From positions 1,073,501-1,137,500 of the forward strand of contig NZ_CP054475.1 in the NCBI RefSeq assembly GCF_025345565.1: a stretch of DNA of 64,000 nucleotides. The letters run 5' to 3'. Below the pieces are notes generated by a model, which worked only from the letters and a program-made list of their open reading frames with translations, had not been told where the DNA came from and searched no databases. Below, in pieces: positions 41,903 to 53,218 of this stretch. The DNA is from Thalassolituus hydrocarboniclasticus (lineage in GTDB: Bacteria; Pseudomonadota; Gammaproteobacteria; Pseudomonadales; Oceanobacteraceae). The translations under genes were made by a program, and so were the position numbers. The number at the start of each line of letters is the position of its first letter. The stretch's first letter is position 1.

Positions 41903-44026
41903 ATGAAATTTCAGCCCGCAGGTCTTTTGCTATTGGGGTTACCTGTGCTTGCACTGACACAGACAGTACAGGCGGCGGAAAACGACGGTACATTAAAAAG
42001 CGCTGCTGCAGCAGAAAATACAGCAGTAAATCAAAGGGCAGCCAAACTGGATAACCAGATCGTGACCGCCAGAGAAAAACTGCTGGGTGAGGCTATGTCG
42101 GCCTCGCAGGGCTATGTCAGTGGTGAAGAAATTAACAGCAGGCCGTTACTGCGCACCGGTGAAGTACTGGAGCTGGTGCCCGGCTTAGTCGTCACCCAGC
42201 ACAGCGGCAGCGGCAAAGCGAACCAGTATTTTCTGCGTGGCTTTAATCTCGATCACGGCACCGATTTCGCCACCTTTGTTGATGGTATGCCGGTCAATAT
42301 GCGCACCCACGGCCACGGTCAGGGTTATACCGATCTTAATTTTATTATTCCGGAAAGCATTGGCTCGCTGAGTTATCAGAAGGGCAGTTACTACGCCGAT
42401 GTCGGTGATTTCAGCGGTGCGGGCAGTGCCACCCTGCAGACCGCCGATACTTTTGCTCAGGGGCTGGCGCAGCTGAGTCTGGGCGAAGATCAGTATCGCC
42501 GGGCGCTGCTGCTCGACAGTCTGAGCAATGCTCAGGGCGACTGGTTGTATGCACTGGAACGCAATACCTACGATGGCCCCTGGAGCGATATCCGCGAAGA
42601 TCTGGATAAAAGCAGTGTGCTGCTCAAGCATCGCCGCGCACTGGCTGGTGGCAAGCTGAGTCTGTCCTTTATGGGCTATGACAACCAATGGAACAGCGCC
42701 GACCAGATTCCGCAGCGTGCGGTCGACAGCGGCCTGATCGACGAACTGGGTTCGCTGAACGACAGCGTGGGCGGTGAATCCAGCCGCTACAGCCTGAATG
42801 CCATCTGGCAACGCGACGGTATTCAGGCTTCGGCTTATGCCATCCGTTACGACATGAATCTGTGGTCGGACTTCACCTATTACCTCGACGATACCGTCAA
42901 TGGCGATCAGTTTGAGCAGGTCGATAAGCGCTGGATTTACGGTGGTCAGCTCAGTTACCTCTGGCACTCAGAGATAGCCGGTCTGGCGATGAGCAACCGT
43001 ATCGGCGCCGACCTGCGTTATGACGATATTGACGAAGTGGGTCTGTATCACAGTAAAGAACGTCAGCGTATCGGAACTGTCCGCAGTGACCGTGTAGGCG
43101 AACTCAGCACCGGCCTCTACGCCGAAAACACCCTGTACTGGAATGAGCGCGTGCGTACCGTGCTGGGTGTGCGCTACGACGACTACCGCTTTGATGTACA
43201 AAGCCGGGTTGGCAGCAACAAAAACGGCGTTGACCTGAGTGCCAATAGCGGCAAAGCCAGCGATAACAATATCGCCTTAAAAGGCAGCGTGATTGTGGCC
43301 CTGAACCGCGACTGGGAAAGCTATCTGGCGGCGGGGCAGGGACTGCATTCAAACGACGCCCGCGGCACCACCATTCAGGTTGATCCGGCCGATGGCAGTG
43401 CGGTGGAGGCGGTTGATCCGCTGGTGGATTCGCTGGGTTATGAGGTCGGTGTGCGCGGTGTTATGGCCGGGCGTCTGAGTACCTCGCTGGCGCTGTGGCA
43501 GCTGGATCTCGACAGCGAGCTGCTGTTTGTCGGCGATGCCGGTAATACCGAAGCCAGCCGTGCTTCACGGCGTAAAGGGCTGGAAATGACGCTCTATTAT
43601 CAGCTGAACGAGCGCTGGAATATGGATCTGGAATACGCCTGGACCAAAGCAGAATTACGCGGCAATGCAGCCGGGGGGAATGAGATTCCCGGTGCGGTGC
43701 GCAATGTGCTGCAGGCGGGTATCAGCAGCCAGCGCGGTGCGGGCTGGTTTGGCAGTCTGCGCCTGCGCTATTTTGGTGAGCGGCCGCTGGTGGAAGATGG
43801 CTCGGTGATGTCTGACCCGACCACGGTGGTGAATCTGCGCAGCGGCTACAGCCTGAACAGCTGGGTGTTCAGTGCCGATGTACTCAACCTGTTCGACAGC
43901 CGCGATCACGATATTGATTACTGGTACGCCTCTCGTCTGCCGGGTGAAAGCAGCGAGCAGGAGGATATTCATTACCATGTGATTGAACCGCGCACTGTGC
44001 GTCTGGCGGCGGCCTGGCAGTTCTGA
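41903..44026 (+). CDS. TonB-dependent outer-membrane receptor
   Basis: 707 residues from ATG 41903 (AGGA 5 bases upstream; frame open from 41819). Signal peptide MKFQPAGLLLLGLPVLALTQ...A. The plug domain has VSGEEINSRPLLRTGEVLEL, LVVTQHSGSGKANQYFLRGF and FVDGMPVN, then an unusual His-rich loop MRTHGHGQGYTD. The C-terminal barrel ends in AAAWQF with terminal Phe, the usual Bam signal. The ligand is unknown; the His-rich plug loop could suggest a metal complex, but this is speculation. Divergent from BlaI/M56, which probably control it. Confidence 0.88.
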   Translation: MKFQPAGLLLLGLPVLALTQTVQAAENDGTLKSAAAAENTAVNQRAAKLDNQIVTAREKLLGEAMSASQGYVSGEEINSRPLLRTGEVLELVPGLVVTQHSGSGKANQYFLRGFNLDHGTDFATFVDGMPVNMRTHGHGQGYTDLNFIIPESIGSLSYQKGSYYADVGDFSGAGSATLQTADTFAQGLAQLSLGEDQYRRALLLDSLSNAQGDWLYALERNTYDGPWSDIREDLDKSSVLLKHRRALAGGKLSLSFMGYDNQWNSADQIPQRAVDSGLIDELGSLNDSVGGESSRYSLNAIWQRDGIQASAYAIRYDMNLWSDFTYYLDDTVNGDQFEQVDKRWIYGGQLSYLWHSEIAGLAMSNRIGADLRYDDIDEVGLYHSKERQRIGTVRSDRVGELSTGLYAENTLYWNERVRTVLGVRYDDYRFDVQSRVGSNKNGVDLSANSGKASDNNIALKGSVIVALNRDWESYLAAGQGLHSNDARGTTIQVDPADGSAVEAVDPLVDSLGYEVGVRGVMAGRLSTSLALWQLDLDSELLFVGDAGNTEASRASRRKGLEMTLYYQLNERWNMDLEYAWTKAELRGNAAGGNEIPGAVRNVLQAGISSQRGAGWFGSLRLRYFGERPLVEDGSVMSDPTTVVNLRSGYSLNSWVFSADVLNLFDSRDHDIDYWYASRLPGESSEQEDIHYHVIEPRTVRLAAAWQF

Positions 44027-44053
44027 TACAGCGTTGTTTCTGCTAAGGAGCGG

Positions 44054-44509
44054 TTAGCCAAACACATTCTGCAGCCACTCAAACTGCACCGGCTGACCGC
44101 TGCCCGACATCACGTCAAAGCGGCAGTCCGGCAGGTTCGCGCCATAGTGTTGCTGCAGATAGTGCCGGGCGGTTTTGAGTAAGCGCTGTTGCTTGTGGTG
44201 GGTGATGCTTTCGGCGCCGCTGCCGTGGCTTTGGCTGGCGCGGTAACGCACCTCAACAAAGACCAGCACCTTGCCGTGACGCATAATCAGGTCGATTTCA
44301 CCGCCGCGGATGGTGTAATTGCGGGTAACGGCTTTCAGCCCCTGACGCTTAAGGAAGTGTTCGGCGGCCTGTTCAATCTCGGCGCCTTTTGTGCGTGTTG
44401 CAGGTTTACGGGTTGCAGGCTTTTCTGCAGCACGGGTTTCGGCGGCAGAGGAAGTCTCTGCCGTTTGTTCTGAATCCTGCAGTTTTTTGTCTTTGCGGGT
44501 AAACCACAT
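44054..44509 (-). CDS. yraN: YraN / UPF0102 family protein
   Basis: 151-residue member of the restriction-endonuclease-like fold. Core motif GGEIDLIMRHGKVLVFVEVRYR with the catalytic-type D and ExR positions. It carries a non-conserved N-terminal extension of about 40 residues (Glu/Thr/Ala/Lys-rich) before GAEIEQAAEHFLKRQG. Usual E. coli length is 131. It follows lpoA by 36 bases in the conserved lpoA-yraN order; the cellular function is not established. Confidence 0.92.
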   Translation of the reverse strand: MWFTRKDKKLQDSEQTAETSSAAETRAAEKPATRKPATRTKGAEIEQAAEHFLKRQGLKAVTRNYTIRGGEIDLIMRHGKVLVFVEVRYRASQSHGSGAESITHHKQQRLLKTARHYLQQHYGANLPDCRFDVMSGSGQPVQFEWLQNVFG

Positions 44510-44545
44510 GGCATCCTTGCCCCGTGAGTTATGCGGTGTGAGTAC

Positions 44546-46345
44546 TCAGCGTCTGGCTAAACGCTGCGGCCGGCCAGAGCGGAACTGGGTACATTCGGTA
44601 CGGCGGTGAATGCGGCGCTCGTGATCCAGCGCCAGTGCGCCGGTGCTGCCAAACATCTGGCTGTGCGGGAATACTTCCAGCTGTTTTAACCGTGGCAGCA
44701 GACGGAAGGCATCCACGCCCATGGCGTATAAGCGGGCATAGCCGCCCTGACCATTCGGCATCACTTTTTCTACGGTGCGGTACAGCTCACTGCTTTCCAG
44801 CAACCAGGGCACGTCGCAGAACTGCACGCCGTTCAGGTCGCGGTCTTTGGTTGGATTCGGTTCGCCGGAATACACATGCGAAGTGGCGTATACCGGCAGA
44901 TCACCGGCAAAGTTAAATGCCAGCGTTGGTTTGATCTGGCGGGCCTGCTGCGGCAGGGCGACCATAAACACCCAGTCGACATCCTGACGGCGGCGCGGCT
45001 CAAACTCGGTGCTCTGACGTAACAGACGGCGCATGGTCTGATAACGCTTCTGGCTGTCGTCGACGTTCAGCAGCGCTTTGATTTCCGGGTTGTAGTCCTG
45101 GCGGTTCGGATAAAAACGCTGTTCGCCGATTTCACCACCCAGCTCCAGCCAGCGCTGTTCAAAGGCGGCATAAATACGCTCGCCCCAGTTGCCCTGTGGT
45201 ACCAGTACCAGCGCGCGGCGCAGGCCATCGGTCCAGGCTTTTTCGGCAATCTGTACGGCTTCGTCTTCGGCGGCCAGGCCGAACTGATAGAGGTTGGCGG
45301 GCAGGGTTTCGGCTTCGCTGCGGTCACCATAGTTCAGGGCCAGGGTTGGCAGCGGCAGGGTTTCGCGCTGTTGCAGTGCCTGCACCTGCATTTTGTTGAT
45401 CGGCCCGATCACCCACTGCGCACCGTCGAGCTGCGCCTGAGCGTAGGCAATATCGATATCGCTGTATTTCTGGCTGTCGTACAGGTGCACCTGCGGAATG
45501 GCGTAGCCTTTATCCAGAGACTCGTAGTAAGCGGCCATAAAACCATCGCGGATGGCGCCACCGGTTTTCTCCAGCGGGCCGGATAACGGCAGCATCAGGG
45601 CGACGCTGTGCGGACGGTTAGCCGCCAGATCAGCCAGCAGTGCCAGACCGCCGGGTAATTGTATTGCTGCCGGGTGAGCCGGATTCTGTTCGCGCCACGT
45701 AGTAACCGCCGCCAGATGTTCGTCCAGTGTCAGGCGTGAGTTACGGGAAATCGCCGCCAGCCGCAGCCAGTCGCCAAACTGGGTAGCCGGGGTTTTTTCT
45801 GCCCATTCCAGCAGCTCGACTTCCGGCATGGCCATTAAATCCTGCCAGATTTGCTCATGATTCTGCTCGCGCTGCTCCGGATTTAATGCGCCGGATAAAA
45901 AATCACGCTCGCGCGCGGCGGCCAGATATTCGCCATTGCTTTCGTACCAGCGGGCTTTTAACAGGCTGGCGCGCAGTTCCTGCTCCGGCGTGGCGTAATT
46001 CATACGCTGGGTAAGCTGGTTGAGATATTCGCCGGCAATTTCCGGCTCGTTGCTGCCCAGATGCATCTGCGCCGACAGCAGCATAAATTCCACCTGCTCC
46101 TGTGGCGTGAGCACACGCTCGTGCAACAGTTGCAATTGCAGCGCAGCATTGCCAAACTCGCCGTCGTCGAGTTCGCCGCGAATCTGCTGCATTAATACTG
46201 AATTACTCTGACTACTGCTTTCGGTAAGGCTGTTGCCCAGCCCGGTTTGTCCCGGTGTGGTAGAACAACCGCTTAAACCCAGACCCGCGCTGACAACCAG
46301 CAGCGATAATCCGCGTAACCAACGATCAGGTAAGTTTCCCCGCAT
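44546..46345 (-). CDS. lpoA: Penicillin-binding protein activator LpoA
   Basis: Outer-membrane lipoprotein that activates PBP1A. 599 residues from ATG 46345; signal peptide with lipobox LGLSGC, then an N-terminal TPR-like helical domain (about 45-230) and a C-terminal periplasmic-binding-protein-like domain (about 250-590, starting SVALMLPLSGPLEKTGGAIR). The frame is open to 46375, but this start keeps a normal signal peptide and has GGGA upstream. Its start codon overlaps head-to-head with that of rsmI. Confidence 0.93.
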   Translation of the reverse strand: MRGNLPDRWLRGLSLLVVSAGLGLSGCSTTPGQTGLGNSLTESSSQSNSVLMQQIRGELDDGEFGNAALQLQLLHERVLTPQEQVEFMLLSAQMHLGSNEPEIAGEYLNQLTQRMNYATPEQELRASLLKARWYESNGEYLAAARERDFLSGALNPEQREQNHEQIWQDLMAMPEVELLEWAEKTPATQFGDWLRLAAISRNSRLTLDEHLAAVTTWREQNPAHPAAIQLPGGLALLADLAANRPHSVALMLPLSGPLEKTGGAIRDGFMAAYYESLDKGYAIPQVHLYDSQKYSDIDIAYAQAQLDGAQWVIGPINKMQVQALQQRETLPLPTLALNYGDRSEAETLPANLYQFGLAAEDEAVQIAEKAWTDGLRRALVLVPQGNWGERIYAAFEQRWLELGGEIGEQRFYPNRQDYNPEIKALLNVDDSQKRYQTMRRLLRQSTEFEPRRRQDVDWVFMVALPQQARQIKPTLAFNFAGDLPVYATSHVYSGEPNPTKDRDLNGVQFCDVPWLLESSELYRTVEKVMPNGQGGYARLYAMGVDAFRLLPRLKQLEVFPHSQMFGSTGALALDHERRIHRRTECTQFRSGRPQRLARR

Positions 46346-47204
46346 GACTTCAGATCCCAGAATGCAGGTCGGCACGTTTTACGTCGTGGCGACACCCATT
46401 GGTAATTTGGCTGACCTCACCGAGCGTGCAAAGCAGGTGCTGACCAGCGTTGATGTAATTGCCTGCGAGGATACCAGACATACCGCAAAATTACTCCAGC
46501 ACCTCGGCCTGCGAAAGCCGCTGTTATCGGTGCACGAACACAATGAACGTGAGCGCGTAGAACAGATTGCCCGCCATCTGGAACAGGGCCAGAGCATGGC
46601 GCTGGTATCCGATGCCGGCACCCCGTTAATTTCCGATCCGGGATATCCTTTGGTGCAGGCGCTGCGCGCGCGCGGCCTGCATGTCAGCCCGATTCCCGGT
46701 GTCAGTGCCATTATTACTGCCCTGAGCGCGGCAGGCCTGCCGACCGACCGTTTTACCTTTGAAGGCTTCCTGCCGCATAAAAGCGGTGCCAAACGCGAAA
46801 AATTACTGGCTCAGGAACAGGAAGCACGCACCCTGGTGTACTACGAATCCAAACACCGGATTCTCGATACGCTGGAAGTCATGGCTGAGGTTTTTGGCGC
46901 AGAACGTCAAGCCTGTGTTGCCCGCGAATTAACCAAAACCTTCGAGACTTTTTATCACGGCACACTGCCAGACATTCTCAGCCAGCTGCAGGCGGATGCC
47001 GACCAGCAGAAAGGTGAATTCGTGGTGATGATTGCCGGCAACCCCGATCCGGCCCCGGCCAGCGAAGTCGACAGCAACAAACTATTCCGCCTGCTGCTGG
47101 CCGAACTGCCACCGAAAAAAGCAGCGGCTATTATTGCCGACCTGACCGGCGAGAATAAAAAAGAGCTGTATCAGAAAGCGCTGGAGATGCAGGGGAAGGC
47201 TTAA
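46344..47204 (+). CDS. rsmI: 16S rRNA 2'-O-ribose C1402 methyltransferase RsmI
   Basis: Tetrapyrrole-methylase-fold SAM enzyme acting on C1402 in the ribosomal P site. ATG 46344 gives 286 residues, the E. coli length. VATPIGNLADLTERAKQVL, ACEDTRHTAKLL, ALVSDAGTPLISDPGYPLV and the C-terminal GENKKELYQKALEM are diagnostic. The frame stays open upstream to 46233, but that part is antisense to the lpoA signal peptide. Divergent from lpoA with shared bases in the two start codons; no Shine-Dalgarno is obvious. Confidence 0.97.
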   Translation: MTSDPRMQVGTFYVVATPIGNLADLTERAKQVLTSVDVIACEDTRHTAKLLQHLGLRKPLLSVHEHNERERVEQIARHLEQGQSMALVSDAGTPLISDPGYPLVQALRARGLHVSPIPGVSAIITALSAAGLPTDRFTFEGFLPHKSGAKREKLLAQEQEARTLVYYESKHRILDTLEVMAEVFGAERQACVARELTKTFETFYHGTLPDILSQLQADADQQKGEFVVMIAGNPDPAPASEVDSNKLFRLLLAELPPKKAAAIIADLTGENKKELYQKALEMQGKA

Positions 47205-47268
47205 ACACAGGCGCCTGCGGGTATTTCACAGCGCCGCAGATAATTGACTGAATGTGAGGGTTGATTCA

Positions 47269-47325
47269 GTGGGAGTGACTTTCAGTAGTGGGAGTGACTT
47301 TCAGTAGTGGGAGTGACTTTCAGTC
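47269..47325. repeat. Three tandem 19-bp repeats
   Basis: GTGGGAGTGACTTTCAGTA occurs three times head to tail, beginning at 47269, 47288 and 47307; the last copy ends in TC. An inverted match (CCGCTCCCAC) lies at 47350-47359. The GTGGGAG/CTCCCAC pair is the signature end of REP-like elements common in Pseudomonas relatives. Confidence 0.85.
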
Positions 47326-47377
47326 ACGATTAAGAGCGCGGCAGAAATGCCGCTCCCACAGGTTTGGTTATTTCCTT

Positions 47378-47731
47378 TTCCTGCAGAACCGGCGCCCGAA
47401 TACCGGTCTAGAGCCGGACGGTCTGGCTATTACTGCTCGTTCCTGTGGAACCTGCGCCCGAATACCGGTCTAGCGCCAGACAGTCTGGCTATTGTTTTCC
47501 TTTCCTGTAGATTCCGCGCCCGAATACCGGCTTAGCGCCAGACAGTCTGGTTATTTACTTCTCGTTCCTGTGGAACCCGCGCCCGAATACTGGTTTAGCG
47601 CCAGACAGTCTGGCCGGTGGGTTCGGTTTTTATAGCACTTACCTGTATTCCTGTAGAACTGCCGTCCGAATTTTGGTTTATCGCCAGACAGTCTGGCCGG
47701 CGGGTTCAGTTTTTATAGCACTTACTCTGTA
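47378..47731 (+). repeat. Five decayed tandem copies of the rnpB promoter and 5' end
   Basis: Units start at TTCCTG at 47378, 47440, 47502, 47565 and 47648 (periods 62, 62, 63, 83), and the real rnpB promoter repeats the same phase at 47732. Each unit holds TTCCTGTRGAAYCCGCGCCCG, like the rnpB -10 TAGAAT and start region, and then CCAGACAGTC as in the 5' end of the RNA. Copies 2, 4 and 5 carry the exact palindrome GCCAGACAGTCTGGC (47475, 47600, 47683) and copy 3 all but its last base. The last two units also share GGGTTCRGTTTTTATAGCAC with the rnpB promoter. Confidence 0.88.
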
Positions 47732-47737
47732 TTCCTG

Positions 47738-47743
47738 TAGAAT
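47738..47743 (+). promoter_or_regulatory. -10 element of rnpB
   Basis: TAGAAT lies 9 bases before the inferred 5' end of RNase P RNA at 47752. The -35 region is not consensus; the preceding TTTTTATAGCACTTACTCTG is duplicated in the two units upstream. Confidence 0.55.
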
Positions 47744-47751
47744 CCGCGCCC

Positions 47752-48113
<362 letters not shown>

Positions 48114-48123
48114 TTTATTATGA

Positions 48124-48158
48124 AAACCCCGCTCAGGAAACTGAGCGGGGTTTTTCTT
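48124..48158 (+). terminator. Terminator of rnpB
   Basis: AAAACCCCGCTCAG / CTGAGCGGGGTTTTT with a short loop, 11 bases after the RNA 3' end. Confidence 0.92.
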
Positions 48159-48170
48159 TACCAGCGTTTC

Positions 48171-48535
48171 GCCGGCTTCTGCCGGGACAGTGACTGCCCA
48201 CGACGACGATTCAGAAACTCAGGGCTTATCGGCTGACTCCTTCTATTTAAAAGCCCCGGAAAGAAATTTTCGGGGCTTTTTCTTTGGTCCTAAGCCGGTT
48301 CTGCCGGGACAGTGACTGCCCACGACGACGATTCAGAAGCTCAGGGCTTATCGGCTGACTCCACTTATTTAAAAGCCCCTGCAGGCTAACGTTTGCAGGG
48401 GCTTTTTCTTTGGTCCTAAGCCGGTTCTGCCGGGACAGTGACTGCCCACGACGACGATTCAGAAACTCAGGGCTTATCAGCTGGCTCCTTTTATTTTAAA
48501 GCCCATACAAATGCGAGTTTGTATGGGCTTTTCTT
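48171..48535 (+). repeat. Three tandem copies of the rnpB 3' end, each with its own terminator
   Basis: Units begin at 48171, 48294 and 48420 (periods 123 and 126). Each reads CTGCCGGGACAGTGACTGCC, then CACGACGACGATTCAG, then the rnpB 3' end GGGCTTATCGGCTGACTCC, then a GC-rich hairpin with T-run. The rnpB-derived part is almost identical between units, whereas the terminator stems differ completely (GCCCCGGAAAG, GCCCCTGCAGG and GCCCATACAAA) yet each remains fully paired. Confidence 0.93.
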
Positions 48536-48559
48536 TTTGTGGCAAGCCGGACCCTGTCG

Positions 48560-48588
48560 GTGTGGGAGCGGATGTTATCCGCGATCGA
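48560..48588. repeat. REP-like element
   Basis: GTGTGGGAGCGGATGTTATCC followed by GCGATCG: the GTGGGAGCGG-loop-CCGCGAT form typical of REP sequences in Pseudomonas relatives. Single copy at this spot. Confidence 0.5.
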
Positions 48589-48634
48589 AGTAGAATAGGC
48601 AGCTGGTTAACATCATCCGTTCACCCCGAACAAC

Positions 48635-48766
48635 GAGGAACGCGAAATTTTCAATGTCGATAGTAAAAAGTATATAAATATCACCTGTAAAAACGGTAAG
48701 TTTGTTGAAATGTATAAAGGCTCTGTTGGCGAGTTCTCAAATATTATAGATTTACTTGTTAATTAG
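48635..48766 (+). pseudogene. 3' fragment of an unknown gene
   Basis: In frame from 48635 the DNA reads EEREIFNVDSKKYINITCKN then GKFVEMYKGSVGEFSNIIDLLVN and stops at TAG 48764. An upstream TAA closes the frame at 48608-48610 with no plausible start between. Codon choice is AT-rich, unlike neighbours. It looks like the C-terminal remnant of a gene truncated when the adjoining REP/rnpB repeats were joined. No family recognised. Confidence 0.4.
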
Positions 48767-48841
48767 CATAGAAATTCTCATAAACCTATAGGCACACTAA
48801 CTGAGCCGCTTAGCTTGTCGCGGCATGGTGAAACCAGCATT

Positions 48842-49306
48842 ATGATTCCGGTAAAACTAAGAGATCTTCAACGTCAGGATAAAACAGCGGTTATGGCCAT
48901 GCTTCAGGATTCCCGGGTTATGAGGTTTCTTGGGCCCCGCCGGGCTTTAACAGAAGATGAGGCGGATTCGTGGTTTGAGAATGCGCTTGATAACCCGTCA
49001 CGTTTTGCTATTGCCCAATCTGATACTGATGAGTTCATCGGATTCTGCGGTATTAAAGAGATCGAAGGTGTTTTGGACTTCGGCTATTTCATCAGATCGG
49101 AGTTCTGGGGTAATGGCATAGTGGTAAGGGCCTCCAGACTGGCGCTTGAAAGGTTGTCGGCTGAGATCGACACAGAGTCCGTTCAGGTTTTTATTGCTGA
49201 CGATAATGTGGCAAGCAAGAGAGTGGCCCAGAAATTGGGCTGGCAGGTCACACACAATGGGACTAAGGATGGGGAGTATGGTGGATATTACCGGATCGTC
49301 CTGTAA
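48842..49306 (+). CDS. GNAT family N-acetyltransferase
   Basis: 154 residues from ATG 48842 (frame open from a TTG at 48815). RimJ/RimL-like fold: FIGFCGIKEIEGVLDFGYFI then FWGNGIVVRASRLALERL and IADDNVASKRVAQKLGW, the last being the acetyl-CoA-fold C-terminal motif. The usual Q/RxxGxG/A loop is altered to FWGNGIV. Substrate unknown. First of four small unrelated genes lying between two copies of the same rnpB-array terminator. Confidence 0.82.
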   Translation: MIPVKLRDLQRQDKTAVMAMLQDSRVMRFLGPRRALTEDEADSWFENALDNPSRFAIAQSDTDEFIGFCGIKEIEGVLDFGYFIRSEFWGNGIVVRASRLALERLSAEIDTESVQVFIADDNVASKRVAQKLGWQVTHNGTKDGEYGGYYRIVL

Positions 49307-49491
49307 TGCATGAAAATGACCTGTGACTTTTCTCCGCTTTAACGCACCCCAAAGTAAAACCGACAGGCACTGAATGCCTGAGTATCAGAATGATCACCAG
49401 AAATAAGATTTAACTTTAATTAGTGTTAACAAGTCCTAAACATGCATCATAAAAGCTATCCAGATAGCATTTTTCAGTAACGAGTAAAAAT

Positions 49492-50076
49492 ATGCACAAA
49501 ATTCAGTGTCAATGCGGGGCTCTTAGTGGTCATGTTCGGGGAGCCGGAACCTGTAGTCGGGTGGTATGTTACTGTGCCGACTGTCAGGCTTTTGCGAAAT
49601 TTTTAGGCCGGGCAGGTGATGTTCTGGATGCACAGGGAGGGACTGAAATTGTGCAGTTGGCACAGCCCCGTGTGGTTTTTTCACAAGGTAAGGAGCATCT
49701 CGCGGCTGTGCGGCTTAGCGATCAGGGGATGATCCGCTGGTATGCCGCCTGCTGTAACACTCCCCTTGGTAATACGCTGCCTGATCCTAAGGTTTCATTT
49801 ATCGGCCTTATTCATTCGGTGCTGAATCGTGCAAAAATGGCCGAAGATTTTGGCAAGAATATCGCAATAGTCAATGTGGATTCTGCTATAGGAGAACCGA
49901 AGCCGAAGCAAAAAGGACTCCCCGGTATGATTGTAAGATTTTTGTGGATTATTTTATCCATGCGTATCGGTGGTAAGTATCGTAATTCTCCGCTTTTTAC
50001 TGAGTCTGGTGAACCTGTTGTGTCACCCGTTATACTCAGTGGCGAAGAGTTAAATAATTTAAAAAATACCCTGTGA
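49492..50076 (+). CDS. GFA/CENP-V-like zinc protein (DUF6151)
   Basis: 194 residues with a Cys-rich metal-binding core: IQCQCGALSG, VVCYCADCQAFAKF, and YAACCNTPLGN, the arrangement of glutathione-dependent formaldehyde-activating (GFA) fold proteins. The C-terminal half has one hydrophobic stretch (MIVRFLWIILSMRIGG) unlike canonical GFA enzymes, fitting the DUF6151 group. No function is known. It stands alone with a 185-base AT-rich spacer before it containing a small AGGCA/TGCCT hairpin and nothing else clear. Confidence 0.72.
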   Translation: MHKIQCQCGALSGHVRGAGTCSRVVCYCADCQAFAKFLGRAGDVLDAQGGTEIVQLAQPRVVFSQGKEHLAAVRLSDQGMIRWYAACCNTPLGNTLPDPKVSFIGLIHSVLNRAKMAEDFGKNIAIVNVDSAIGEPKPKQKGLPGMIVRFLWIILSMRIGGKYRNSPLFTESGEPVVSPVILSGEELNNLKNTL

Positions 50077-50154
50077 TAAGGTGTTATGTATTAACAGCGT
50101 CATGGGCTATAAACCCTGTAGTGACGGTGATTACCCGGTTAACCAGACATCGCT

Positions 50155-50934
50155 ATGATTAAACCCGCTGTTAAAAAAGAGATCCTTGCCCGCATTGAAA
50201 ACGCCGAGAAAGAGCATGGCGTCCGCGTTCTTTACGCGGTTGAATCGGGTAGCCGTGCCTGGGGATTCGAGTCACCGAACAGTGATTACGATGTGCGTTT
50301 TATCTATGCGCATCCTAAAGACTGGTATGTGGCGGTGGACCTGGAAGATAAGCGTGATGTTATCGAGTATCCGATTGTCGATGAGATCGACATCAACGGC
50401 TGGGATATCCGCAAAGCCTTAAAGCTGTTTTCACGCTCGAATCCGGCCTTTGTCGAGTGGCTGCAGTCGCCCATTGTTTACCTTGATCGCGGTGATTTTG
50501 CGCGCAGGTCGCGTGAGCTGTTGAGTACGGTCTACTGCGTTGAAAAAGGGATTTACCACTACCGCAGCATGGCGAAAACGAACTACCGGGGTTATCTGCG
50601 TGATGATCTGGTGCCGATTAAAAAATACTTTTATGTATTGCGTCCGTTGCTGTCCATTATGTGGCTGGAGAAATATCGCAAGCCTGCCCCCATTGAATTT
50701 GAGACTCTGCGCCAGATGATTGCCGGCGACAGAAAACTGAATGAGCAGATTTCTGCACTGCTGGTGCGCAAGAAGATCAGTCTGGAAAAGGAGCTTGCTC
50801 CGCCTATTCCTGAGCTGAATCAGTTTATCGAATCTGAATTAGAACGTCTGGAATCCTTTGCTGACAGTACAAGGAAAGAGCAGTCGGTAATGGATGAGCT
50901 GAATGCTTTATTTCACGCGAGTCTGGTTTTATAA
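50155..50934 (+). CDS. Nucleotidyltransferase-superfamily protein (RlaP/PF10127 type)
   Basis: 259 residues. The nucleotidyltransferase motif GSRAWGFESPNSDYDVRFIY at about 31-50 has the GS and paired Asp (DxD) metal ligands; KYFYVLRPLLSIMWLEKY is the characteristic helical C-terminal part. Such proteins occur as stand-alone enzymes or in toxin/phage-defence contexts; the related phage T4 RNA-ligase-associated family gives the name. Target unknown; no antitoxin-like partner lies next to it. Confidence 0.8.
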   Translation: MIKPAVKKEILARIENAEKEHGVRVLYAVESGSRAWGFESPNSDYDVRFIYAHPKDWYVAVDLEDKRDVIEYPIVDEIDINGWDIRKALKLFSRSNPAFVEWLQSPIVYLDRGDFARRSRELLSTVYCVEKGIYHYRSMAKTNYRGYLRDDLVPIKKYFYVLRPLLSIMWLEKYRKPAPIEFETLRQMIAGDRKLNEQISALLVRKKISLEKELAPPIPELNQFIESELERLESFADSTRKEQSVMDELNALFHASLVL

Positions 50935-50978
50935 AGCATCCGGAATGGCCCCTTATTTTTCTGAAACCGGAATTTTGA

Positions 50979-51383
50979 ATGGATAAGAACGTAAAAACCC
51001 GTTTCGACCAGTACCCGGACTCTGCCCGTCATCAGCTTTCCTCGTTGCGGAGCCTGATTTTTCAGACCGCTGAACATCTGCAGTCAGGTGCTGTTGAAGA
51101 ATCTCTGAAATGGGGTGAGCCCAGCTACAGTGTTAAAAGCGGCAGTCCGATCCGGATCGACTGGAAGCCTGATACTCCGCATAACTGCTATGTGTTTTTT
51201 AACTGCAACACCAAACTGGTTGATACCTTCCGGGTTCTGTATGGCGATGTACTGGCGTTTCAGGGCAACAGGGCCATTGTATTAGACCTTTCCGCAGCGC
51301 TGCCTGAGTCTGCGCTGCGCCATTGTATTGAACTTACGCTGACTTATAAAAAGCGCAGGCATTTGCCATTGCTGGGAGCCTGA
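50979..51383 (+). CDS. DUF1801 domain protein
   Basis: 134-residue small alpha/beta protein: HQLSSLRSLIFQTAEHL, ESLKWGEPSYSVKSGSPIRI and a C-terminal basic helix ending YKKRRHLPLLGA. It is the YdhG-like/DUF1801 fold; function not established. It starts 44 bases after the nucleotidyltransferase gene and ends 35 bases before the duplicated terminator. Confidence 0.82.
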   Translation: MDKNVKTRFDQYPDSARHQLSSLRSLIFQTAEHLQSGAVEESLKWGEPSYSVKSGSPIRIDWKPDTPHNCYVFFNCNTKLVDTFRVLYGDVLAFQGNRAIVLDLSAALPESALRHCIELTLTYKKRRHLPLLGA

Positions 51384-51417
51384 CAGACTCAGTTCCGTTG
51401 CGCTTTCAAAAAATCAG

Positions 51418-51456
51418 AAAGCCCATACAAATGTCAGTTTGTATGGGCTTTTTCTT
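51418..51456 (+). terminator. Terminator duplicated from the rnpB array
   Basis: AAAGCCCATACAAA / TTTGTATGGGCTTT with six-base loop then TTCTTT. The 14-bp arms are identical to those of the last rnpB-array terminator at 48498-48531; only the loop differs (TGTCAG versus TGCGAG). The following TGAGCCGGGGCTGG also resembles the TAAGCCGGTTCTG that begins array units. Confidence 0.9.
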
Positions 51457-51637
51457 TGCCCTGAGCCGGGGCTGGCTGCGCCCGGATAGCAGGCCTCGGC
51501 CCCAGATTTCATGTTTACCTGAGATGCTTATATGAATTGGCACGATAGGACCATTTTTACTGAGGCCGTTGCTCTCTAGAATGGCCGTCCGGGGAAAGGA
51601 ATCTCAATCTGATAAACATAATAAAGCTGAGATCAAT

Positions 51638-53218
51638 ATGACTCTGAAAAATGCTGCATTCAAACCACTGCTGGCCGCTTCTTTACTGATAGCCGCTATG
51701 AGCGGTCAGGCCATGTCTGATACGCCAACCGCTACTCAGGAAGCTACGGCGCCCATTCCTGCACCCGAAACCTCTGTCAGCAACCTGGCGTATGCGGATG
51801 ATTTAAAGCTGCTGGCCTACAACGTGTATATGTTGACCGGTGCTATTTCCGACTGGTCGCAACAAACCCGTGCGGAACTGATTCTGCAATCGGACGTTAT
51901 TCATGGACACGACGCCATTATTCTTAATGAAATTTTTGATAATGGGCCGGCGCAAACCCTGCTGGACGGCCTGAAAAGTCAGTATCCGCATCAGACTCCG
52001 GTACTGGGCCGCACCAAGAGCGGCTGGAATCAGACGCTGGGGGCATACAGTAATACCGCTCCGGAAGATGGTGGTGTGGCCATTGTCAGCCGCTGGCCGA
52101 TTGAGGAACAAATTCAGTACGTCTACAAAGAGGGTTGCGGAGCGGACTGGCTGGCTAATAAAGGCTTTGTGTATATCCGTCTGGATAAAAACGGCCATGA
52201 CTATCATGTGATTGGCACCCATGCTCAGGCTGAAGACGGCGCCTGTTCCGATCCGGCTGCCGTGCGCAAAAGTCAGTTCACCGAAATGCAGCAGTTTATT
52301 GCCAGCAAAAATATCCCGGCCGATCAGGTACTGTTTATCGGTGGCGATTTTAACGTAATTAAAAACAGCGCCGAATACCCGGATATGCTGGAAACCCTGC
52401 ATGTGAATGCACCGGATGCCTATGCCGGATTTGATACCTCCTGGGACCCGGAATCCAACGGTATTGCCGCCTATAACTATCCGGACCTGCCCAGCGAATA
52501 CCTCGATTATATTTTTGTTTCCCGTGATCATGCGCAGCCAACCTACTGGCATAACCAGTCGCTGGACGTGACCTCGCCACGCTGGGAAAACAAAAATTAT
52601 CAGTATCAGGAGCTGTCCGATCATTATCCGATTGCCGGTTTCTCCTATGCCGATGACAACACCCGCACCGAAAGCTACCGCTTTGTGAATCAGCCTTATT
52701 CCGCCGTGAAGTTCCGTAATCAGGCCAATGGCGCTTATATCAAAATTAACGCCAGCGATAACGACGGCTGGATTAAGGTGAATGGCAGTGCCAGCGATGC
52801 GGCAGCCAGCTTTAATCTGGATAACTGGTATCCGAAAAACCGTGCTTTCTGTATCCGCAGCAACGACTTTGTGCAGGTACAGGGTAATTTGCGTGTCGGT
52901 TCTTACTGGAACTGGTGGCTTGGCGGTGGTGGCGGTAATTATGCCTACTTTACCAAACAGGATAATGCCTCCAATAAATTACGTATCCGTATTCTGAATG
53001 ACGATGGCGACTGTCTGAAAAACGGCGATCAGGTGGTCTTTGTTGATCGTGATACGGTGAGCGGCAAAGATTATTATCTGCAGCGCTGGCCGTCAGGTTC
53101 CTGGACCGATCATCTGTATATGTGGTCAGGTTCGGTGGGCGCTAACGAAACCTTCACCGTCGAGATGGGTGTGGGTCAGAAGCAGGACTGGACGTCAAAA
53201 CTGCGCTACGTGCAGTAA
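51638..53218 (+). CDS. Secreted sphingomyelin phosphodiesterase (SMase C-like)
   Basis: 526 residues from ATG 51638 (frame open from 51569). Signal peptide MTLKNAAFKPLLAASLLIAA..A. The exonuclease-endonuclease-phosphatase fold has all metal/catalytic motifs: LAYNVYML, ILNEIFDN, FIGGDFNVIK, YLDYIFVS and SDHYPIAGF, giving the Mg-dependent Glu, Asp/Asn and His of neutral sphingomyelinases. The C-terminal ~160 residues form a separate beta-rich domain with aromatic clusters (YWNWWLGGGGGNYAYF), perhaps for membrane or lipid binding. Secreted or periplasmic. A strong terminator follows. Confidence 0.86.
   Translation: MTLKNAAFKPLLAASLLIAAMSGQAMSDTPTATQEATAPIPAPETSVSNLAYADDLKLLAYNVYMLTGAISDWSQQTRAELILQSDVIHGHDAIILNEIFDNGPAQTLLDGLKSQYPHQTPVLGRTKSGWNQTLGAYSNTAPEDGGVAIVSRWPIEEQIQYVYKEGCGADWLANKGFVYIRLDKNGHDYHVIGTHAQAEDGACSDPAAVRKSQFTEMQQFIASKNIPADQVLFIGGDFNVIKNSAEYPDMLETLHVNAPDAYAGFDTSWDPESNGIAAYNYPDLPSEYLDYIFVSRDHAQPTYWHNQSLDVTSPRWENKNYQYQELSDHYPIAGFSYADDNTRTESYRFVNQPYSAVKFRNQANGAYIKINASDNDGWIKVNGSASDAAASFNLDNWYPKNRAFCIRSNDFVQVQGNLRVGSYWNWWLGGGGGNYAYFTKQDNASNKLRIRILNDDGDCLKNGDQVVFVDRDTVSGKDYYLQRWPSGSWTDHLYMWSGSVGANETFTVEMGVGQKQDWTSKLRYVQ

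Follow-up and report, generated by a model that had tools for sequence, protein, structure and literature searches.

Tandem copies of the rnpB promoter and 5' end upstream of rnpB in Thalassolituus hydrocarboniclasticus, most likely a recombination and replication scar

Introduction

The closest known system to the locus described here is the 113-nt repeats downstream of rnpB in Escherichia coli. Tandem repeats at that site are known from the older literature, and in our own scan of the E. coli K-12 control a 113-nt repeat came out in 3.5 copies, all downstream of rnpB, with nothing upstream. Two other arrangements bear comparison. The 178-bp repeats at tyrT of E. coli are in tandem, too, and derive from one end of a stable RNA gene that is highly transcribed, and the rRNA operons have tandem promoters, with several -10 and discriminator sequences in series. 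rnpB itself is in general highly transcribed.

Here we describe repeats on both sides of rnpB in Thalassolituus hydrocarboniclasticus, based on a window of 64,000 nucleotides (NZ_CP054475.1, positions 1,073,501 to 1,137,500; coordinates below count from its first letter). Like the E. coli repeats, the array upstream of the gene (the 5' array) consists of head-to-tail copies of one gene end beside an intact rnpB. The direct counterpart of the E. coli repeats, however, is the array downstream of the gene (the 3' array), which is made of the 3' end and terminator; the 5' units match positions -20 to +18 instead. The window thus has a second array, from the opposite, promoter-bearing end, which is without counterpart in E. 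coli K-12, and blastn of the 5' array against E. coli genomes gave no match. The tyrT repeats derive from the 3' end of a tRNA gene, whereas the source here is a promoter and 5' end. The likeness to the rRNA operons lies in serial -10 and discriminator sequences before a stable RNA, but the upstream -10 sequences are decayed here. Among the matches listed in a search of titles and abstract openings, which covered few subscription papers, none described repeats upstream of rnpB; this is weak evidence that the 5' array is new.

Results

Five units upstream of rnpB carry its promoter and 5' end

The 5' array occupies 47378-47731 as five direct units that start at 47378, 47440, 47502, 47565 and 47648. 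The features of the locus are as follows.

47338-47359, - strand: REP-like hairpin GTGGGAGCGGCATTTCTGCCGC, shortly before the 5' array; one of three exact pattern matches in the genome
47378-47439, + strand: 5' unit 1, 62 nt; -10-like CAGAAC, discriminator-like GGCGCCCG, hairpin GCCGGACGGTCTGGC
47440-47501, + strand: 5' unit 2, 62 nt; -10-like TGGAAC, palindrome GCCAGACAGTCTGGC at 47475-47489 and then TATTGTTTTC; terminator-like
47502-47564, + strand: 5' unit 3, 63 nt; -10-like TAGATT, palindrome GCCAGACAGTCTGGT at 47537-47551; terminator-like
47565-47647, + strand: 5' unit 4, 83 nt; -10-like TGGAAC, palindrome, long spacer
47648-47731, + strand: 5' unit 5, 84 nt; -10-like TAGAAC, palindrome, long spacer
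47732-47751, + strand: real rnpB promoter core TTCCTGTAGAATCCGCGCCC; -10 TAGAAT, G+C-rich discriminator
47752-48116, + strand: rnpB, RNase P RNA class A (RF00010, 331.5 bits), with the P1/P2 5' strand GGAGTCGGCCAGACAGTC at its start
48123-48154, + strand: terminator-like hairpin of rnpB
48150-48531, + strand: 3' array; the rnpB 3' end in three copies spaced by 122-128 nt, with a terminator-like hairpin in every copy
48185-48199, 48307-48321 and 48433-48447, + strand: P2 3' strand in the near-hairpin GGACAGTGACTGCCC, 5 of 6 pairs

Each 5' unit begins with a copy of the 20 nt immediately preceding rnpB, the start of which is placed by the Rfam model, and a sixth copy of the 21-nt unit head (47732-47752) is the real rnpB promoter. 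A consensus head built from 12 full-length units of three species aligned with rnpB from -20 to +18 at a score of 49, against a shuffle maximum of 32.5 (n = 2000). The initial annotation had given the units as 62-84 bases long and had derived them, in decayed form, from the promoter and 5' end of rnpB, and on both counts it was right. Three motifs that it placed in every unit fared unevenly: TGTAGAAT occurs only in the real gene, copies 1-5 reading TGCAGAAC, TGTGGAAC, TGTAGATT, TGTGGAAC and TGTAGAAC; CGCGCCCG is exact in copies 3 and 4 and in none of the others; and CCAGACAGTC is exact in copies 2-5 but not in copy 1. The RNA 5' stretch GCCAGACAGTC is likewise exact in four of the five units and altered in unit 1. 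The interval from discriminator to GCCAGAC is 13-15 nt in the units vs 7 in rnpB, and the long spacer of unit 5 now occupies the -35 region of rnpB. The idea that the spacers are remnants of the rnpB 3' end, which would make the units internally deleted mini-genes, was rejected, the similarity not rising above shuffles.

The gene rsmI lies upstream of rnpB on the same strand and ends at 47204. Three perfect copies of the 19-mer AGTGGGAGTGACTTTCAGT at 47268-47324 adjoin the REP-like hairpin, and the number of these copies is different in the related genomes G002 and G008. REP-like GTGGGAGCGG hairpins bracket the rnpB repeat region in opposite orientations, at 47338-47359 and at about 48562-48587; in G002, one is also found within the 5' array, close to its upstream edge. 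Directly after the 3' array, at 48815-51383, are small + strand genes that by eye resemble cassette or island cargo (acetyltransferase-like and others). Within the family, the distance from rsmI to rnpB is below 100 bases in G018, 5-6 kb in G006 and G009 and about 14 kb in G012, and the two genes are on different contigs in G001. Since this spacing varies across the family, the neighbourhood of rnpB seems to be often rearranged.

The -10 hexamer of the gene is kept in no unit

We compared 16 units from three species (G000, the genome of the window, G002 and G008); this set leaves out the units of G003 and G006 as well as one further decayed G002 unit upstream of a REP-like hairpin. The -10 of rnpB reads TAGAAT, TAAAAT and TAGAAT in the three species. 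In the fixed register, the units read TAGAAC (five), TAGATT (four), TGGAAC (three), CAGAAC (two) and TAAATC (two), so that the hexamer of the gene is intact in 0 of 16 and its last T is lost in 12. Judged by these sequences, the 5' copies look dead as promoters; the TAGATT units could have weak promoter activity. A sigma-70 pattern scan of 47200-48600 found no promoter and, since it overlooked the real one of rnpB too, gives no evidence either way.

RNA pairing is retained where DNA symmetry is broken

Copies 2, 4 and 5 carry the palindrome GCCAGACAGTCTGGC unchanged, copy 3 departs from it at the last base alone, and rnpB itself has no palindrome, all as initially described; at this position, the gene reads GCCAGACAGTCGTCG and copy 1 reads GCCGGACGGTCTGGC. 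The sequence had been called a perfect palindrome, and it is present as given, but it has 15 bases and so the centre base is without a partner. The convergence of the copies on it, which had also been proposed, is not needed as an explanation, because the palindrome belongs to a unit family that the source genome has in common with two sister species.

As RNA, the element is a hairpin of 6 bp with a 3-nt loop. Pairing is 6 of 6 in all 12 full-length units of the three species (the other 4 of the 16 are short and without the hairpin), and copies within one genome are related, so these counts are not independent. DNA symmetry, in contrast, is broken in 6 of the 12, with three or five mismatches to the unit's own reverse complement, centre base included. 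Four distinct stem changes (positions 3, 4, 11 and 15) each turned a standard pair into G-U; by our own arithmetic, the chance of four such pair-preserving changes is about 0.06 if transitions only are considered. This pattern hints at selection at the RNA level. The four units without the hairpin include the gene-proximal unit of G002 and of G008, which means that the unit adjoining rnpB has no palindrome in two of three species. A looser form of the palindrome was found in 3 of 9 genus genomes. The RNAs of the five units of the window are at best slightly better folded than shuffles (z -0.1 to -1.4), and two of the five pass a terminator pattern scan. The loss of symmetry and the missing hairpin beside the gene make an operator less likely, and the retained pairing gives slight support to a feature that acts as RNA.

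The 3' array shows a parallel in the P2 strand

Repeats lie on either side of rnpB, the two sets drawn from opposite gene ends, in agreement with the initial description. Of the 14 3' copies in the genus, 13 form the hairpin GGACAGTGACTGTCC or one similar to it with 5 or more of its 6 pairs (five of them with all 6); random 15-mers reach 5 pairs in 3%, and here too copies within a genome are not independent. The corresponding stretch of the nine rnpB genes shown has 2 of 6 pairs each. None of the seven 3' copies outside the genus reaches 5 pairs in that register (maximum 3), and G032, from another genus, has by eye a palindrome in a different register, ACAGTTAACTGT. From these comparisons, the stray P2 strand (the 5' strand upstream, the 3' strand downstream) appears to have gained its own complement on both sides of rnpB.

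The 3' copies of E. coli resemble those of the family in that the 7 nt AGAACCC/AAAACCC of the gene is replaced by 17-19 nt. This was so in all 21 copies caught (11 of 121 records, E. coli included) by a pattern that allowed 5-32 nt and required CACGAC and GGCTTA, more decayed copies (e.g., that of G163) not being counted. The architecture common to E. coli K-12 and the family is the P2 3' strand with CACGAC, then 17-19 nt, then GGCTTA; it is found in G000, G002-G005, G007, G008, G014, G031, G032 and E. coli K-12, and the P1 3' strand is present by eye in all such copies except the last one of G004. An exact 3'-copy pattern gave 0 matches in 370 genomes of the class, but this pattern is also without a match in the source genome and hence uninformative.

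Copies close upstream of rnpB were found in a single genus

In the source genome of 4.07 Mb, the 62-nt composite unit has five matches, all inside the array, and the exact palindrome has three sites, all in the array as well. A search of the genome for the palindrome had been put forward as a test, and it revealed no exact site away from the rnpB array; sites with one mismatch are unit 3 and position 1986819, in an open frame that by eye is a sigma-factor-like gene. A dispersed repeat of the REP or MITE type was rejected as an explanation, the 62-nt unit being restricted to the rnpB array in the source genome. Scanning one genome per species for the unit pattern, in a collection of 84,980 species that may leave out the source genome, returned two contigs, from Thalassobium sp. 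NORP79 and Thalassolituus alkanivorans TMPB967.

For sampling relatives, rnpB was matched in 131 of 140 genomes of the class, of which 80 loci were used (including G053), and 40 of 55 relatives' loci were used. The flanks of rnpB were scanned up to 600 nt (5') or 700 nt (3') at threshold 30, with a reversed control, in the 117 of 120 gammaproteobacterial genomes that had enough flank. This gave 5' matches in 5 genomes and 3' matches in 11, against 0 and 0 in the reversed controls. The 5' copies are in five of nine genus genomes (G000, G002, G003, G006 and G008) and in none of 108 others. A wider scan over 2 kb at threshold 38, which overlooked the short 5' units of the source genome itself, gave 5' copies in 3 of 118 genomes (G003, G008 and G139) and 3' copies in 12 of 119. 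The copy in G139 is a single 5' rnpB fragment about 1.6 kb upstream, with no array; it is followed by a frame resembling, by eye, a REP-associated transposase. Decayed partial rnpB copies also lie about 1 kb upstream in G001 and about 55 nt downstream in G163. Thirteen further loci at the level of the order, G040 and G042 among them not turned to the gene strand, had 0 matches at threshold 34; G044 was left out of the scan.

G003 has its own unit of 51 nt, in 3.8 copies that end at rnpB. This unit aligned with the promoter and 5' end of the G003 gene at a score of 44 (shuffle maximum 28), and units and gene both carry an extra A (GCCAAGACA). G006 has two promoter-like copies. Because G003 is unplaced in the rsmI and rnpB tree, one origin and two origins of the 5' arrays are not distinguished. 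Both ends of ssrA, 6S and ffs in the source genome were also scanned, the 6S locus on the opposite strand and its ends therefore swapped, and no end copies were found; one 6S flank has a weak tandem of two 24-nt copies that does not match the end of the 6S gene. With none at these three loci, the idea that stable RNA genes in general acquire end copies was rejected, and high transcription alone would be insufficient to produce them.

Unit types, spacers and terminators are reshuffled between close relatives

RsmI of G002 and of G008 is 99% and 100% identical to that of the source genome, and their rnpB genes have 2-4 differences from that of G000 over 365 positions. Unit types and spacers stand in a different order in the three genomes. 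Each species has a cassette of its own as the spacer that abuts the functional promoter core, namely the 34-nt long spacer, TATTACTGCTCG or TATTGTTTTCCT. At the other end, the rnpB terminator hairpin of G002 equals the hairpin of the third 3' copy of G000 except for one loop base, and the rnpB terminator hairpin of G000 is found in a 3' copy of G002. We infer from these patterns that unequal crossover or gene conversion has reshuffled array and gene. In their behaviour, the repeats are a recombining minisatellite that extends into rnpB.

Discussion

Based on our findings, the 5' array is a real, lineage-specific repeat and most likely a recombination and replication scar that is still turning over, possibly with a weak insulating effect. 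As to its origin, we consider it probable that tandem duplication and template-switch correction of palindromes took place at a gene under high transcription, and that any function at present is weak or absent. The 374-bp minisatellite would have arisen when the promoter and 5' end of rnpB, from -20 to about +18, were duplicated in tandem. Replication slippage or template switching at both ends of a very highly transcribed unit may have generated the duplications, and unequal crossover or gene conversion may then have spread and reshuffled them. Template switching would also have made the palindromes, through quasi-palindrome correction: the P2 strands GACAGTC/GACTGTC are intrinsically palindromic and would have seeded it after the copies had escaped the constraint of the ribozyme. 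Such correction is established in E. coli (PMC7202029), and in yeast without RNase H2 it was seen only under high transcription (PMC3820800). In both papers, imperfect inverted repeats become more perfect, as they appear to have done in the units; the change in the units, however, is deduced from comparison, fixed and spread through the array, and is not one observed as mutation events. Promoter-dead copies would be tolerated because an active copy would yield a 5'-extended RNase P RNA. The interval of 13-15 nt in place of 7 speaks against simple duplication, which does not explain it.

Transcription insulation is the main rival to the scar, and we regard it as possible though unlikely: the small hairpin and U-rich stretch of each unit would stop or pause polymerase that comes from rsmI or has started at a leaky promoter of a copy, and RNase P RNA would thereby always begin at its own +1. 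The pairing kept in 12 of 12 full-length units, with four G-U-preserving changes and the DNA symmetry lost in half of them, fits this reading, as does the terminator-like character of two of five units, but the remaining three do not pass the pattern, the unit RNAs are at best slightly better folded than shuffles, and the hairpin is missing from 4 of 16 units, including the gene-proximal ones of G002 and G008. In its favour, P1/P2 pairing is predicted to fall from 1.00/0.88 to 0.10/0.09 when the native 104-nt extension (the last unit and promoter) is added; shuffled extensions, however, also disturb P1, the value exceeding 0.5 in 11 of 24 at 104 nt and in 2 of 12 at 374 nt. If the copies were instead active promoters in tandem that boost rnpB transcription, as initially suggested, the retained TG before the -10 region, the mostly retained G+C-rich discriminator and the key A and last T preserved in the four TAGATT units would be accounted for. 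The suggestion did not hold up, since the hexamer of the gene survives in no unit and 12 of 16 have lost the last T, and upstream starts would give a 5'-extended RNA; we think it quite improbable. Decoy transcripts, which had likewise been suggested, are possible. A protein that binds GCCAGACAGTCTGGC and activates or represses rnpB is highly improbable. By our own arithmetic, the palindrome centre precedes the following start analogue by about 40 nt where the unit is short and by 61-62 nt where it is long, about two helical turns apart, and these distances are close to classical activator positions. Against such an operator, which had also been proposed at first, we found no regulon and no other exact site in the source genome, asymmetric changes in 6 of 12 units, no palindrome beside the gene in two of three species, and even the looser form in just 3 of 9 genus genomes.

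Another possibility, which we judge very improbable, is that copies were kept only if their P2 strands were locked in hairpins, so that read-through RNA would not mispair with P2 of the ribozyme. It would agree with the hairpins formed on opposite P2 strands in the 5' and 3' copies of one genus, and with the predicted capture of the P2 3' strand of the gene by a 104-nt extension, 0.90 for a gene-like copy vs 0.00 for the native one. Yet the native palindrome fails to restore correct P1/P2 pairing (P2 0.09 vs 0.02, and 0.00 in both cases with five units), the P2 5' strand of the gene is captured more by native copies (0.21 vs 0.00; 0.16 vs 0.00 with five units), capture of its P2 3' strand reaches 0.85 with the native 3' array, and the 3' copies of E. 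coli lack such hairpins. The folding predictions are thus mixed and on balance point against self-neutralisation. A related scheme, in which two libraries of gene ends swap cassettes with rnpB and retune its start region and terminator on the time scale of species, the stray P2 strands being harmless because self-folded, seems improbable to us. Finally, mobile elements seem to use rnpB as an integration site in the family: in G021 and G028, a fragment of its 3' part (89 or 161 nt, 99-100% identical) lies about 4.4 or 9.2 kb downstream, with a frame of 538/539 aa, integrase-like by eye, between the gene and the fragment. That the 5' units are scars of site-specific integration has next to no likelihood in our view, as it is the 3' part that those elements involve, the spacing of the 5' units is regular, and by eye no frame of 44000-52000 is integrase-like.

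At this locus, the upstream end of an essential ribozyme gene has been amplified and reshuffled, as the downstream end is in E. coli. The -35 region and terminator of rnpB can vary as cassettes among closely related species. The 17-19 nt replacement common to the 3' copies of E. coli and of the family raises the question of why the repeats persist, whether by ancient inheritance or by constraint. With this locus, nature offers a test case for the ways in which the ends of highly expressed RNA genes are shaped by transcription, replication slippage and template switching.
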